Origin: an uncultured Nitrospira sp. | Lineage (GTDB): Bacteria > Nitrospirota > Nitrospiria > Nitrospirales > Nitrospiraceae | Length of the DNA: 39,488 nt | NCBI GenBank assembly: GCA_902500825.1 | Contig: CABVRX010000031.1 | Location: 1 to 39,488 of the forward strand | Reading direction: 5' to 3' | Shown here: positions 6,050 to 11,079 of the stretch, piece after piece | How the letters are laid out: each line of letters opens with the position of its first letter | Numbering within the stretch: position 1 is the stretch's first letter | Position numbers and translations under genes: made by a program | The notes under the pieces: generated by a model | The model's database searches: none | The model's input: the letters and a program-made list of their open reading frames with translations, nothing else | Told to the model about the DNA's origin: nothing

Positions 6050-7894
6050 ATGACAACGATCGATGCTAAGCCTTCTGAAAACCTGAATATCGTCATCGTC
6101 GGCCATGTCGATCATGGGAAGTCTACCTTGTTGGGTCGGCTCTATGCCGACACCGGCTCGCTGCCCGACGGTAAGCTGGAAAAAGTGCAGGCCATTTGCA
6201 AGCAGCAGGGGAAGGAATTCGAATATGCGTTCCTTTTCGACGCCTTTCTCGAAGAACAGGAGCAGGGGATTACGATCGATACGGCGCGCACGTTTTTCAT
6301 GTGGAAGGGCCGACAATACATCATCATCGATGCGCCGGGGCATAAGGAATTCCTGAAAAACATGATATCAGGCGCCGCCCGCGCCGAGGCGGCATTACTA
6401 TTGATCGATGCCTTAGAAGGAGTCAAGGAACAGTCGAAGAAGCACGGGTACCTCTTGTCGCTGCTGGGTGTCCGCCAGTTTGCGGTGGTGGTCAACAAGA
6501 TGGATCTGGTCGGTTACCGGCAGGATGTGTTCGACGGGATCGAAAAAGAGTACCGCGAATTTCTGGGGCAGTTCAAAGCCGTGCCGTCGCAGTTTATTCC
6601 AGTGAGTGCGAAGCTCGGCGACAACATCGCCAACCGCAGCGAGCAGATGCCGTGGTACAGCGGCCCAACCGTCTTGGAAACTCTCAGTGCTTTCCAGAAG
6701 GAAGCGGCACGGTCGGAGCAGCCCCTTCGATTGCCCGTGCAGGACGTCTATAAGTTCGATGCACGCCGAATCATCACCGGCCGCATCACCGCCGGGCGTC
6801 TCAAGGTCGGCGATCACCTCGTCTTTTCGCCCTCCAACAAGCGAGTCAACATCAGAACGGTGGAGGCCTTCAATATTGAGCCGCCACCGACTGAAGGCCA
6901 GGCGGGGCAATCGATCGGCGTCACGCTCGATGAGCAAATCTTTGTCGAGCGTGGCGAAATCGCCTCGCATCAGGACAATCTTCCATCCGTGTCCACGGCC
7001 TTTCGGGCCAATCTGTTCTGGCTAGGAAAGCGACCGCTGGAAAAAGGGCGCAAGTATCTGCTCCGCGTCGCGACCAAAGAAGTGGACTGTGAGGTCGCAA
7101 CCATTCATCGGATCATCGACACGATGGACCTCGCCCAGCAACAGGGCAGCCATACCATCAGCAAGAACCAAGTGGCCGAACTAACCTTGCGTACGAAAGC
7201 TCCGGTTGCATTCGACCTATCGGCGTCGTTCGAGGCAACGGGCCGCTTCGTCTTGGTAGATGAATACGACATCGCGGGCGGGGGCATCATCACCGAACTG
7301 GTCCATGACGATCAGGAGTTTCTCCGCGAAGAAGCCAGACGGCGTGATTTTGCGTGGGTCAAGGGCGAAGTCACGGTTGAAGACCGCGCTCAACAGTACG
7401 GCCATCGGGCGGCGGTCGTTCTGATTACCGGAGGACGCCACACAGGCAAGTCGTTTTTGGCCAGAAAACTCGAAGGGCGTCTCGTGGCGGATGGGCGTCA
7501 TGCCTACCTCTTGGATGGTGAGAATCTGCGTCGTGGACTGGATGCTGATCTCAGTGAAGAAGAACGGGGGCAGACGACGGAAATGGCTCGACGCTACGGC
7601 GAAGTGGCACGACTCCTGACCGACACCGGGCTCATCATCGTCTCGACCACAAATCCATTCGGCCTGGCCTATCGCGAGGCCTCACAGGCGATCAGGACGC
7701 TTGTGCATCCTGCGCCGGTTATCGCCGTCCACATGAGCAAGACCGAAGAAGAGCCACCGCCGAACACTGATGTGGTCCTCTCAGGTCCTACTGATTTCGA
7801 CGCCGCAACCACTCGCATCCTCGACGAATTGAAACGACGGGGTGTCCTAGCCCAGGCCATCGGGGCCAAGCCTGTCTTTCAGTACTCGATCTAA
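6050..7894 (+). CDS. cysN: Sulfate adenylyltransferase subunit 1 fused to APS-kinase-like domain
   Basis: A 614-residue CysN/C-type fusion. The GTPase part has G1 GHVDHGKS (18-25), G3 DAPGH (94-98) and G4 NKMD (149-152), followed by two beta-barrels to about residue 430. The C-terminal 160 residues resemble APS kinase (GGRHTGKS at 461-468, then [11 protein letters not shown]). The serine motif ISP is replaced by TTNPF (about 533-537) and the FTGIDxxYE lid is missing, so kinase activity is doubtful. With a [4Fe-4S] APS reductase in the operon, PAPS would not be needed. The ATG at 6050, with GGATGAAAG upstream, is preferred over an in-frame TTG at 6023. The protein works with CysD. Confidence 0.88.
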
Positions 7895-7910
7895 GGGCAA
7901 CCATCCCACA

Positions 7911-7932
7911 GGACTGCCTGGCCAGGCAGTCC
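7911..7932 (+). terminator. Palindromic terminator after the cys operon
   Basis: GGACTGCCTGG followed directly by CCAGGCAGTCC forms a 22-bp perfect palindrome 16 bases after the cysN/C stop. Folded in RNA it gives a stable GC-rich stem of about nine pairs with a tight loop. No U-run follows (CGCTTGT), so the terminator call rests on the stem and the position at the operon end. Confidence 0.5.
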
Positions 7933-8070
7933 CGCTTGTACAGTGGAGTTGGGAGACTGGTTCCTCACCTTGTAGGCGATGGTTCGAGACCGGCCTCTTG
8001 ACGGCTTTCCCTATACAGCCATATTCTGCTTTGGCGTGCTACGGTGCTCTCCTTAGCGAAGGTGACTGTC

Positions 8071-8649
8071 ATGCAGGGTAAAGACCCGTTCTTGGCACTC
8101 CTCGGGTTATTCATCCTTGGTACCGTGTTCTTCTTCTGTGGCGAAAGTTCGGTCACGTCACCTCCACCGGTTGCATTGGAAAAACCGGTGGAAATTCCTC
8201 CGCCGACTCCGAAAATCGTCGAGCCACGGCCATCACCAGCACCGCCACCAGTGCCACCGGTATCAGCACCAGCCGTGCTGAAAAAAAAGATTGATGAGCT
8301 GCTGATGGGGACAACGATTATGTTCCGAATCAACAGCGCCACGCTGCTGCCGGAGGGGAGAGCTGTCCTGAATAGCGTGGCCGCGATTTTACACGAAGAT
8401 CCTACGGCTGCCTTTGAAGTTGGCGGCCATACGGACAACGTCGGATCAGAGCACGCGAATCGGGTGCTCTCGGAACAGCGCGCCAAGGCCGTCGTCGAGT
8501 ATCTGATCTCAAAAGGGATCGTTGCTGATCGTTTGACCCCCAAAGGGTATGGAGCGTCGCGACCGATCACTGAGAATTCTACTGATGAGGGGCGCCAGCA
8601 AAACCGGCGGATCGAATTCTCCATCGGAACCACGGGAGAGCAGTCATGA
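8071..8649 (+). CDS. OmpA-family peptidoglycan-associated protein
   Basis: A 192-residue protein. A hydrophobic N-terminal segment (about residues 6-25) serves as signal anchor, then comes a Pro-rich linker (about 40-80) and a C-terminal OmpA domain (about 85-185) with the peptidoglycan-binding signature HTDNVGSEHANRVLSEQRA and the closing NRRIEF. It most likely sits in the envelope and contacts peptidoglycan. The ATG at 8071 with GAAGG upstream is chosen, and an upstream in-frame GTG at 8044 is possible. It overlaps the next gene by four bases (ATGA), so the two are translated as a pair and probably cooperate. Confidence 0.83.
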   Translation: MQGKDPFLALLGLFILGTVFFFCGESSVTSPPPVALEKPVEIPPPTPKIVEPRPSPAPPPVPPVSAPAVLKKKIDELLMGTTIMFRINSATLLPEGRAVLNSVAAILHEDPTAAFEVGGHTDNVGSEHANRVLSEQRAKAVVEYLISKGIVADRLTPKGYGASRPITENSTDEGRQQNRRIEFSIGTTGEQS

Positions 8650-10019
8650 TGTCTGAAAACTGGACTTGCTGGCTTTGGACGGTGGTGGGAGCTGGTTTCT
8701 TGGGGTGGGGGATCAAGGGGATGGTGCTGGGACCGGTGATGGATGACAAGCGCCGTGAGGTGGAACGCCTTATCGGCAAGGTCACCATGCTCACCAATCA
8801 ACCGCCAGAGGTTCGAACGGTTGAGAAACGGGTCGAGGTGCCGGTGGAACGGGTGGTGCTGAAACGTATTGAAGTGCCGGTGGAGAAGGTCGTAGATCGG
8901 CCGGTCGACCATCCGGAGCAGCTGGCTCGGATCAAGGCGCTGGAGGGCGAGGTAGCCGTGATCGCTGGGCTGTTTACGCAGATCGCTCAGCTCAAAACCT
9001 TTTCTTTACAGGCTGGGGAGAGGCGTGTCGAAGAACGGGTGGTGGTGCCGGTCGACAATCCGGAGCAGCTGGCCAGGATCAAGGCGTTGGAAGGCGAGGT
9101 GGCCGTGATCGCCGATCTTCGTGCGCAGATTGCTGAGCTCCAGGCCGTGTCTTTGCAGACTGGTGAGAAGGTCGTCGAGAAGCGGGGCGAGACTTCCGCT
9201 AAAACAATTGTCGTGAAGAATGGGGAAGTACCGGTTGAAACGATCAGTGAACAAGCCGGTGAGCTGGACCCTGCCGGTGCCGTTGAGCCGTCGGATGAGG
9301 GACAAGCGGTCGGAGAGTCGCCCGATGATCTGAAACACATCCGCGGGGTCGGGCCGGCGTTAGAACGATTCCTTCACAAGCGGGGCGTCTTCTGGTTCAG
9401 CCAGGTGGCGACCTGGAGCCAGGCGGACATCGACAAATTCGAATTCCTCTTACCCAACTTTGGGGGGCGCATTCAACGAGAAAACTGGGTGCGCAGCGCC
9501 AGAGTCGAGCACTACAAGAAGTATAACCAGTGGCTGGGCGGCGGCGAACCCTCAAGTGAAGGCCCCGATCTTCATGCGCAGATTGCTGATCTCCAAGCCG
9601 TGTCTTCACAGGCCGGAGAAAAGAATGTGGAGAAGCGGATCGAGACTTTCACTGAACCGAATGGGGAGGTGCCCATCGAGAAGATGAGTGAGCAGGTGGG
9701 GGACCTCAACCCTGCCGGTGCCGTTGAGCCGTCGGATGAGGGACAAGCGGTCGGAGAGTCGCCCGATGATCTGAAACACATCCGCGGGGTCGGGCCGGCG
9801 TTAGAACGATTCCTTCACAAGCGGGGCGTCTTCTGGTTCAGCCAGGTGGCGACCTGGAGCCAGGCGGACATCGACAAATTCGAATTCCTCTTACCCAACT
9901 TTGGGGGGCGCATTCAACGAGAAAACTGGGTGCGCAGCGCCAGAGTCGAGCACTACAAGAAGTATAACCAGTGGCTGGGCGACGATGAGCCCACAAGTAC
10001 GACGCCGGATATACCCTAG
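8646..10019 (+). CDS. Membrane-anchored protein with repeated helix-hairpin-helix domains
   Basis: A 457-residue protein. Residues about 8-30 form one membrane segment. Then come coiled repeats rich in Val/Glu (EVPVERVV, EVPVEKVV) and two copies of a unit starting PEQLARIKALEGEVAVIA. Two helix-hairpin-helix domains of the COG3743 kind (DDLKHIRGVGPALERFLHKRG, then GRIQRENWV) occupy about 224-298 and 371-445. The second is encoded by an exact 272-base copy of the first. Such C-terminal domains occur in otherwise unrelated proteins and their ligand is not known. Coupling to the upstream OmpA-domain gene suggests an envelope role rather than DNA repair. The two copies make this part of the assembly sensitive to collapse. 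Confidence 0.75.
   Translation: MMSENWTCWLWTVVGAGFLGWGIKGMVLGPVMDDKRREVERLIGKVTMLTNQPPEVRTVEKRVEVPVERVVLKRIEVPVEKVVDRPVDHPEQLARIKALEGEVAVIAGLFTQIAQLKTFSLQAGERRVEERVVVPVDNPEQLARIKALEGEVAVIADLRAQIAELQAVSLQTGEKVVEKRGETSAKTIVVKNGEVPVETISEQAGELDPAGAVEPSDEGQAVGESPDDLKHIRGVGPALERFLHKRGVFWFSQVATWSQADIDKFEFLLPNFGGRIQRENWVRSARVEHYKKYNQWLGGGEPSSEGPDLHAQIADLQAVSSQAGEKNVEKRIETFTEPNGEVPIEKMSEQVGDLNPAGAVEPSDEGQAVGESPDDLKHIRGVGPALERFLHKRGVFWFSQVATWSQADIDKFEFLLPNFGGRIQRENWVRSARVEHYKKYNQWLGDDEPTSTTPDIP
9269..9540 (+). repeat. 272-bp perfect direct repeat, copy 1
   Basis: This stretch is identical, base for base by eye, to 9710-9981 (offset 441). It encodes the helix-hairpin-helix domain. The first differing base on the right is 9541 (G versus A at 9982). 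Shorter, diverged repeats upstream (from 8913 and 9060) have an offset of 147 bases, one third of 441, so the gene seems to have grown by successive in-frame duplications. Confidence 0.9.
9710..9981 (+). repeat. 272-bp perfect direct repeat, copy 2
   Basis: Second copy of the 272-bp repeat at 9269-9540. The absence of even synonymous changes, next to clearly diverged neighbouring repeats, points to a very recent duplication or to gene conversion between the copies. Confidence 0.9.
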
Positions 10020-10160
10020 GTTTGCTCTTCATTGCGAAAGCCATTAGAGGAGGTTGAGCCCCCAGCCGCAGGTGCTGCTTCAGTCATCGACGAATTAAAG
10101 CGCCGAGGCGTCCTGGCTCAGGCCATCGGGGCGAAACCGGTCTTTCAGCATTCGATCTAG
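10020..10160 (+). pseudogene. Remnant of a second cysN/C 3' end
   Basis: In the frame of the preceding gene, directly after its TAG, an open stretch of 46 codons ends with [23 protein letters not shown] and a stop. This matches the last residues of CysN/C (same with YSI). The last 78 bases (10083-10160) agree with 7817-7894 at 63 positions, and nearly all differences are synonymous. The upstream part (KPLEEVEPPAAGAAS) may be a shortened version of the EEEPPPNTD region. No start codon or ribosome binding site suggests it is translated alone. Confidence 0.75.
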
Positions 10161-10344
10161 AGTCGACTATCCGTTCGAACAGATGGACACTGCAACAGTC
10201 TCGTAATATTTTAAATTTATCCCTTCCGAGTTTTAGAGCTACGTACCTAACTCCCTCCCCCTCCAGCCGTTTGACTCACCGAAAATCCTTATGATAGCGT
10301 AGCATTGAAGAAATTTTTCGAGGATCTCTGCAACAGGAGTCTTT
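10161..10344. other. Intergenic stretch before the PCP_red/zinc-ribbon gene
   Basis: No gene is seen. An AT-rich segment (about 10203-10222) and TTGACT near 10270 could belong to a promoter, but no -10 element at a proper distance is convincing. A good ribosome binding site (AGGAG near 10335-10339) serves the gene at 10345. Confidence 0.4.
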
Positions 10345-11079
10345 ATGAAATTTGTCTGTCTGAATTGCGAAACATACATGAGTCTCGAAAAGGTGGAGAA
10401 ACCGGAGGAGGGATCGCTCGGCGTCTTTTTCGCCTGTCCTTCGTGTAGCGCGAAGTTCTCAATGGTGACCAATTCCGGAGAAACCAGCATGATGAATGCC
10501 TTGGGGCTGAAGCTGAGCCCGAAGTCCGCGGCGGAAACGTCCATGGAAGGGTTGCGTGCTTTAGGGGGAAACGGTCAAACCGCTCCTGCTGTGACTAAAC
10601 AAGCGACATCTGCGCCGGTTGTTTCCACAGGTGCTGCGTCACCGGCTAAGGCGCCTGAAAAAACGAGCGGTTGTCCTTTCTCCGCGATGGTCGCTGAGAT
10701 GGGGCTGACGGCCGGCGGCAAGCCTGGGAACGACATGAGCCCAGGTTCCTCCGAGTTTACCTGGACTGCCGATGCCAAGGAGAAGCTCGACCGGCTCCCG
10801 GCATTTGTGAAACCGATGGTTCAGGGCAGTGTAGAAACCTATGCCCGCAAACAGGGATTCAAGACCATCACGCTGCAAGTGATGGACGATTCGAAGAATG
10901 ATTCACCCGACGGCATGACGTGGTCACGCGAGGCGGAACAACGGTTGGAAAATATTCCGGACTTTATCCGTCCCATGGCTCGAAAAGAGGTTGAACGTCT
11001 GGCCAAGGAGCGTGGGGTGTCGACGATCACCGCGCAGGTGATGGACGAGGCGAAGGACAAGTTCATGAAGTTCATGTAG
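10345..11079 (+). CDS. Zinc-ribbon protein with two PCP_red domains
   Basis: A 244-residue soluble protein. The N-terminus has a zinc-ribbon-like C5-x2-C8 and C31-x2-C34. A low-complexity Ala/Thr/Pro linker (about 75-108) contains the motif GCPF (109-112). Residues 139-183 and 192-238 are two copies of the PCP_red domain, known as the C-terminal domain of the B subunit of light-independent protochlorophyllide reductase. Each begins with W-T/S and has the core LPxFVKPM or IPDFIRPM and a TITxQVMDxAK end. No chlorophyll genes are near, so a role in pigment synthesis is not implied. The function is unknown, and another protein of this domain type lies at 25002. Confidence 0.78.
   Translation: MKFVCLNCETYMSLEKVEKPEEGSLGVFFACPSCSAKFSMVTNSGETSMMNALGLKLSPKSAAETSMEGLRALGGNGQTAPAVTKQATSAPVVSTGAASPAKAPEKTSGCPFSAMVAEMGLTAGGKPGNDMSPGSSEFTWTADAKEKLDRLPAFVKPMVQGSVETYARKQGFKTITLQVMDDSKNDSPDGMTWSREAEQRLENIPDFIRPMARKEVERLAKERGVSTITAQVMDEAKDKFMKFM

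Follow-up and report, generated by a model that had tools for sequence, protein, structure and literature searches.

Two cysN/C 3' ends around an ompA-hhh gene pair in Nitrospira: a probable scar of lateral exchange anchored in a sulfate-assimilation gene

Introduction

The nitrifier genus Nitrospira is known mostly from uncultivated genomes. In one of these, the stretch of 39,488 nucleotides analysed here in full (the window) carries the end of the sulfate-assimilation gene cysN/C twice, once in the intact gene and once as a short piece downstream of two further genes, coding for an OmpA-domain and a helix-hairpin-helix (HhH) protein. This raises the question of how a gene can leave a second 3' end behind its own neighbours. 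A sequence-only reading of the same DNA had suggested that a second cysN/C allele may have brought the two genes along or received them by recombination. The comparison made here, against 68 other Nitrospira loci, supports this proposal, in that the locus looks like two joined haplotypes, and finds the overall interpretation right in substance.

Results

The intact cysN/C (6050 to 7894, on the forward strand like all features described here) codes for the large subunit of sulfate adenylyltransferase fused to APS kinase, as indicated by the Pfam domains GTP_EFTU, GTP-eEF1A_C and APS_kinase. Its resident 3' end (copy A, 7817 to 7894), delimited by repeat search and tail comparison, is followed by a spacer (7895 to 8070), the OmpA-domain envelope gene ompA (8071 to 8649; Pfam OmpA, 2e-23) and hhh (8646 to 10019), a coiled-coil/helix-hairpin-helix gene with two HhH units and a partial match to HHH_5 below the Pfam cut-off. 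The aligned 3' flank of hhh (10020 to 10063) leads into the displaced cysN/C end (copy B, 10064 to 10160, with a start uncertain by about 20 bases), which comprises about 32 codons with the stop. A second spacer (10161 to 10344) separates it from pcp (10345 to 11079; Pfam PCP_red, 7.5e-34), which marks the conserved right-hand limit of the variable interval and is recognised by its synteny with yebC-ruvA-ruvB in the relatives. The two 300-nt units of hhh (9218 to 9517 and 9659 to 9958) are 95% alike, and their 72-residue HhH domains (9324 to 9539 and 9765 to 9980) are identical as protein; the hhh genes of relatives contain one to about four units, so the unit number varies, and homogenisation appears to act on the copies.

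The last 78 bases of cysN/C (7817 to 7894) match 10083 to 10160 at 63 of 78 positions, as counted by hand, and a direct-repeat search pairs 7818 to 7906 with 10084 to 10172 (89 nt, 80% identity), one of five direct-repeat families of at least 60 nt in the whole 39.5 kb window. Thirteen codons differ between the copies, 11 of them synonymously (stop included), leaving two amino-acid changes (L to I and Y to H), and the 20-residue protein end is the same in both. The recurrence of the tail, the nearly exclusively synonymous differences and the unchanged protein end had all been noted before and are reproduced here. Synonymous differences are to be expected, because copy B has spent most of its history inside real cysN/C genes. 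A search of the whole genome recovers copy B at E = 7.5e-16 and yields no third copy of the tail. Of the two, it is copy B and not the intact gene that is displaced, and this remnant most likely has no function.

As had also been observed, copy B lies in the reading frame of hhh after its stop, but this coincidence has a chance of 1 in 3. The frame remains open for 46 codons, which had been taken together as a remnant of cysN/C. This assignment stands for about 10064 to 10160, whereas the bases from 10020 to about 10063 belong to the natural 3' flank of the HhH gene: the window follows the loci L040, L041 and L098 up to about 10063 and then switches to cysN/C, and the open frame is therefore composed of about 15 codons of hhh flank and about 32 codons of cysN/C.

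The two sides of the interval resemble different arrangements in other species. Over their whole length, copy B and the 184-nt spacer behind it align with the one cysN/C-pcp junction present in L083 (genome G052; 84% over 189 nt for the spacer), where OmpA/HhH is absent from the locus and a close HhH copy from elsewhere, and more weakly with that of L048/L089. The cysN/C-ompA junction and its spacer align with L053, L066 and the sequence between a displaced cysN/C fragment and ompA in L033. Both this junction and the 3' flank of hhh match relatives in which the pair is present. Similarity to L040, L041 and L098 ends at about 10063, and no obvious homology exists at about 10064 between the clade-A continuation (clade A is described below) and cysN/C, although the age of the join has erased its exact position. 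The locus is a mosaic, and these alignments are best explained as a join of two haplotypes, cysN/C-ompA-hhh and cysN/C-pcp.

The expectation that the distal tail should resemble other species more than the local copy holds (69 of 77 matches to L041 vs 63 of 77), yet does not discriminate, since the resident tail likewise matches other species better (68 of 77). The tails printed for other species show 59 to 69 matches of 77 to either copy, and naming a donor from tails this short and saturated was dropped. A scan of the hhh-pcp spacers of other pair-bearing genomes gave no convincing tail remnant and one borderline score, in L093; it excluded L066, whose pcp start is unusable and which does carry a remnant. 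L066 belongs to G025, a member of the other major clade, and has the same hhh-to-tail junction sequence as the window, its tail breaking off after about 20 bases, at about +2440 (3' of cysN/C), where a REP/MITE-like palindrome (GGGGACAG...CTGTCCCC; GGGGACAGCAAAGACAGTTGCTGTCCCC) interrupts it. The junction shared with G025 indicates an old event, and the hhh-tail join either predates the split of the clades or was passed on again.

The gene cysN/C is present and conserved in all 69 loci (the window included, with a few cut by contig ends), and the relatives keep the order cysN/C, variable interval, pcp, orf, yebC, ruvA, ruvB. Distances from cysN/C to pcp range from 161 to 7680 bases (s.d. 2024, n = 56), those from yebC to ruvA from 43 to 80 (s.d. 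7, n = 45), so that variation is concentrated beside cysN/C. A single cysN/C end had been predicted for genomes without the pair, and is found in 30 of the 33 closed cysN/C-pcp intervals without HhH; the other three contain cysN/C fragments of their own. The ompA-hhh pair is not exotic in Nitrospira, as it sits 3' of cysN/C in many members of the genus and is widespread outside the pair-less groups. In L033, L053, L066 and L094, ompA is reduced to about its first 51 residues with hhh directly after it, a shared deletion which spans both clades and again suggests exchange at the locus. The pcp gene falls into two deeply separated forms, of which one often follows an Mrp/NUBPL-type ATPase gene and the other does not; their disagreement with the species tree indicates that the right border has been exchanged too.

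In a species tree built from rpoB and recA, the window species falls into clade Y (with G067, G031, G052, G053, G054, G055, G056, G057, G064 and G021), while clade X consists of clade A (G006, G013, G015, G017, G018, G060 and G078) plus G004, G025 and G074. The pair-less locus L048, with its similar cysN/C-pcp junction, lies outside both clades. The 5' part of cysN/C, yebC, ruvA and ruvB of the window are 87.1, 86.2, 88.2 and 87.8% identical to those of pair-less Y species and 83.8, 81.1, 84.0 and 84.9% identical to those of clade A; the first 1.2 kb of cysN/C are closest to the ompA-less sister species. These flanks are native. The ompA-hhh pair behaves differently: compared with the clade-A representative L040, DNA identity is 89.5% for ompA and 91.5% for the N-terminal part of hhh vs 84.0% for the 5' part of cysN/C (ruvA is 84.5% identical to that of clade-A L050), and the sister species of clade A reach only 75-79% identity to it in ompA/hhh (a difference of 20-25%). 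With the pair closer to L040 than the conserved flanks are, vertical descent fails and lateral exchange fits. Judging from these values, ompA-hhh would have been exchanged between the lineages of the window and of clade A, in a direction that identity alone leaves unfixed. The closest copies of the window hhh are at the same locus in other Nitrospira. Between -1545 and -700 of cysN/C most diagnostic sites are of the Y type, but over the final 650 bases or so they favour neither side, and the left crossover probably lies in this last part. The window pcp is itself a mosaic, and the pcp tree does not group it with L083. Searches of plasmid and phage collections found no cysN/C 3' sequence and hence gave no sign of a vector.

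Displaced ends recur in other species. Additional fragments of the cysN/C 3' end occupy this interval in L033, in L034-L037, in L045 and L088, in L067, and in the group of L056, L057, L074, L075, L087, L093 and L097, as well as weakly in L072 and L084. The placement of the fragment-bearing loci on the trees gives at least five separate origins, counting the window. The breakpoints are at -372 in L033, about -77 to -87 in L034-L037, about -132 in L045/L088 and about -174 in the L056 group; copy B and the L034-L037 fragments both start near -77 to -97. The fragment of L033 is 90-97% identical to the resident cysN/C over the last 250 nt or so and 68-77% upstream, with an abrupt drop at about -252, a pattern which looks like the footprint of recombination between two copies, as gene conversion would leave. 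The cargo in other species includes genes for a BBP2-type porin, PIN, DUF433/DUF5615 and ParE-type toxin-antitoxin systems. Full searches of ten genomes detected no cysN/C fragments outside this interval, the compared loci contained no similar short pieces of yebC, ruvA or ruvB, and a GTDB scan added no further cases of displaced ends.

Discussion

The second cysN/C end is probably a displaced gene end left behind by lateral exchange anchored in cysN/C. Incoming DNA from another Nitrospira, carrying ompA and hhh behind a cysN/C 3' end, would have paired with the resident cysN/C and recombined homologously within this gene on the left side, the crossover presumably falling into its last 650 bases or so. 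On the right side, a non-homologous (illegitimate) join or a single crossover just inside the end of the resident gene may have closed the event, a Campbell-type single crossover of a circular molecule being the alternative for this end. The outcome would be one intact, probably chimaeric cysN/C, a new ompA-hhh pair, and then the former cysN/C end, of which about 97 bases are still attached to the old neighbour pcp; as to polarity, the pair was presumably imported into a pair-less ancestor of clade Y. The old end of the anchor indeed lies beside its old neighbour, as the spacer between copy B and pcp corresponds to that between cysN/C and pcp in L083, and the junction of the cysN/C fragment with ompA in L033 to that of cysN/C with ompA in L053/L066. 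A single simple import does not cover the hhh-tail junction shared by L066 (G025), however, and neither tail is long or unsaturated enough to identify a donor. The mosaic pcp, whose tree separates the window from L083, and a left crossover that is not pinned to one point also weigh against the explanation.

Among the alternatives, the most durable one takes the double-ended arrangement as ancestral to both clades, with the pair-less Y species arising by direct-repeat recombination which deleted ompA-hhh and left a single cysN/C end tipped by copy B. The hhh-tail junction of G025 in the other clade, the copy-B type spacer retained in pair-less L083, and the wide occurrence of ompA-hhh 3' of cysN/C outside the pair-less groups all agree with it. 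We nevertheless regard it as unlikely: the window ompA and hhh resemble clade A far more strongly than the genomes do, so that lateral exchange is needed even in this case; the pair-less tails are no nearer to copy B than to copy A; L044, L071, L034 and L036 have another spacer after cysN/C; and pair-less L048 has a similar junction although it lies outside both clades.

Integrative elements inserted into the 3' ends of genes, using tRNA or protein genes as att sites, typically leave an intact gene at one flank and a displaced 3' end at the other. An integrase using the cysN/C 3' end as attachment site, with the two tails as attL and attR, would produce this usual geometry, and the similar starts of copy B and the L034-L037 fragments might be seen in the same light. 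Unlike such elements, the Nitrospira locus has no fixed core: the breakpoints differ from event to event (-372 to about -77), the tails are diverged rather than identical, and nothing that looks like an integrase is encoded by the ORFs listed for the window interval and for L033-L037 or occurs among the cargo proteins scanned. The variable breakpoints and the lack of an integrase among the examined ORFs do not support an att-site model, which seems highly improbable. The recurring -85 and -77 breakpoints of L034-L037 were considered as an att core and rejected, as the left-half pieces join a cassette-end repeat which is found elsewhere without cysN/C, and as all four genomes belong to one clade.

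Equally little is to be expected from a simple tandem duplication, in this lineage, of the 3' region of cysN/C, followed by decay and divergence. It needs no donor, and the L033 fragment is most similar to its resident gene over the last 250 nt, but this similarity ends as abruptly as after gene conversion, the spacer after copy B differs from that after copy A and matches another haplotype, and the ompA-hhh genes between the tails were laterally exchanged. That the distal tail belongs to a functional small gene or forms a C-terminal, exon-like extension of HhH is hardly credible, since, despite the open frame of 46 codons and the mostly synonymous differences, a stop separates it from hhh, no start is supported, other hhh-pcp spacers lack such a sequence and a palindrome cuts the tail in L066.

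Lateral exchange anchored in cysN/C has known counterparts. In the type VI secretion (T6SS) clusters of Vibrio cholerae, displacement of effector-immunity modules leaves immunity genes orphaned and the 3' ends of effector genes displaced, and these arrays as well as Rhs loci have been attributed to homology-facilitated illegitimate recombination (PMC5361080). As in Nitrospira, the module is anchored by upstream homology, the old 3' end is pushed downstream, no specific integration site is used and repeated events produce strings of old ends (PMC5361080). The Nitrospira case differs in its anchor, a housekeeping sulfate-assimilation gene whose displaced end is most likely non-functional, and in its cargo, which is the OmpA/HhH pair here and a porin-like gene or toxin-antitoxin pairs elsewhere in the genus. 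Bacterial homology-facilitated illegitimate recombination combines one homologous with one illegitimate end (PMC3240628), which would give the geometry of the Nitrospira locus, although that process is described as a laboratory integration and the Nitrospira case is deduced from old, diverged sequence.

The locus is a well-documented recombination scar and a fresh instance of a known process rather than a new system. It forms a readable record of lateral gene exchange between Nitrospira species, in which the gene ends left behind show the places and the frequency of integrase-free entry of foreign segments into the chromosome; by the same token, short cysN/C matches in Nitrospira should be taken as scars rather than second genes. 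More tentatively, and with the balance slightly against it, the cysN/C 3' end may serve as an integrase-free exchange anchor throughout the lineage, at which segments stack repeatedly and displaced ends recombine with the intact gene. Segments with envelope genes or toxin-antitoxin pairs would then bring a cysN/C end of their own, each leaving a displaced one behind.

A further observation concerns L035-L037, where segments between a cysN/C tail and a cysN/C piece ending at -85 are located at +3330 to +4500 (L035), +3100 to +5330 (L036) and +3050 to +4180 (L037) downstream of cysN/C. Those of L036 and L037 contain toxin-antitoxin genes. The segments are bordered by GGGTCAGA..TTGATA and TATCAAG.TCTGACCC and may represent a mobile toxin-antitoxin cassette. 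The right-hand border repeat of about 75 nt recurs elsewhere in Nitrospira genomes, including two sites in G000 (C4:160009 and C15:40118).
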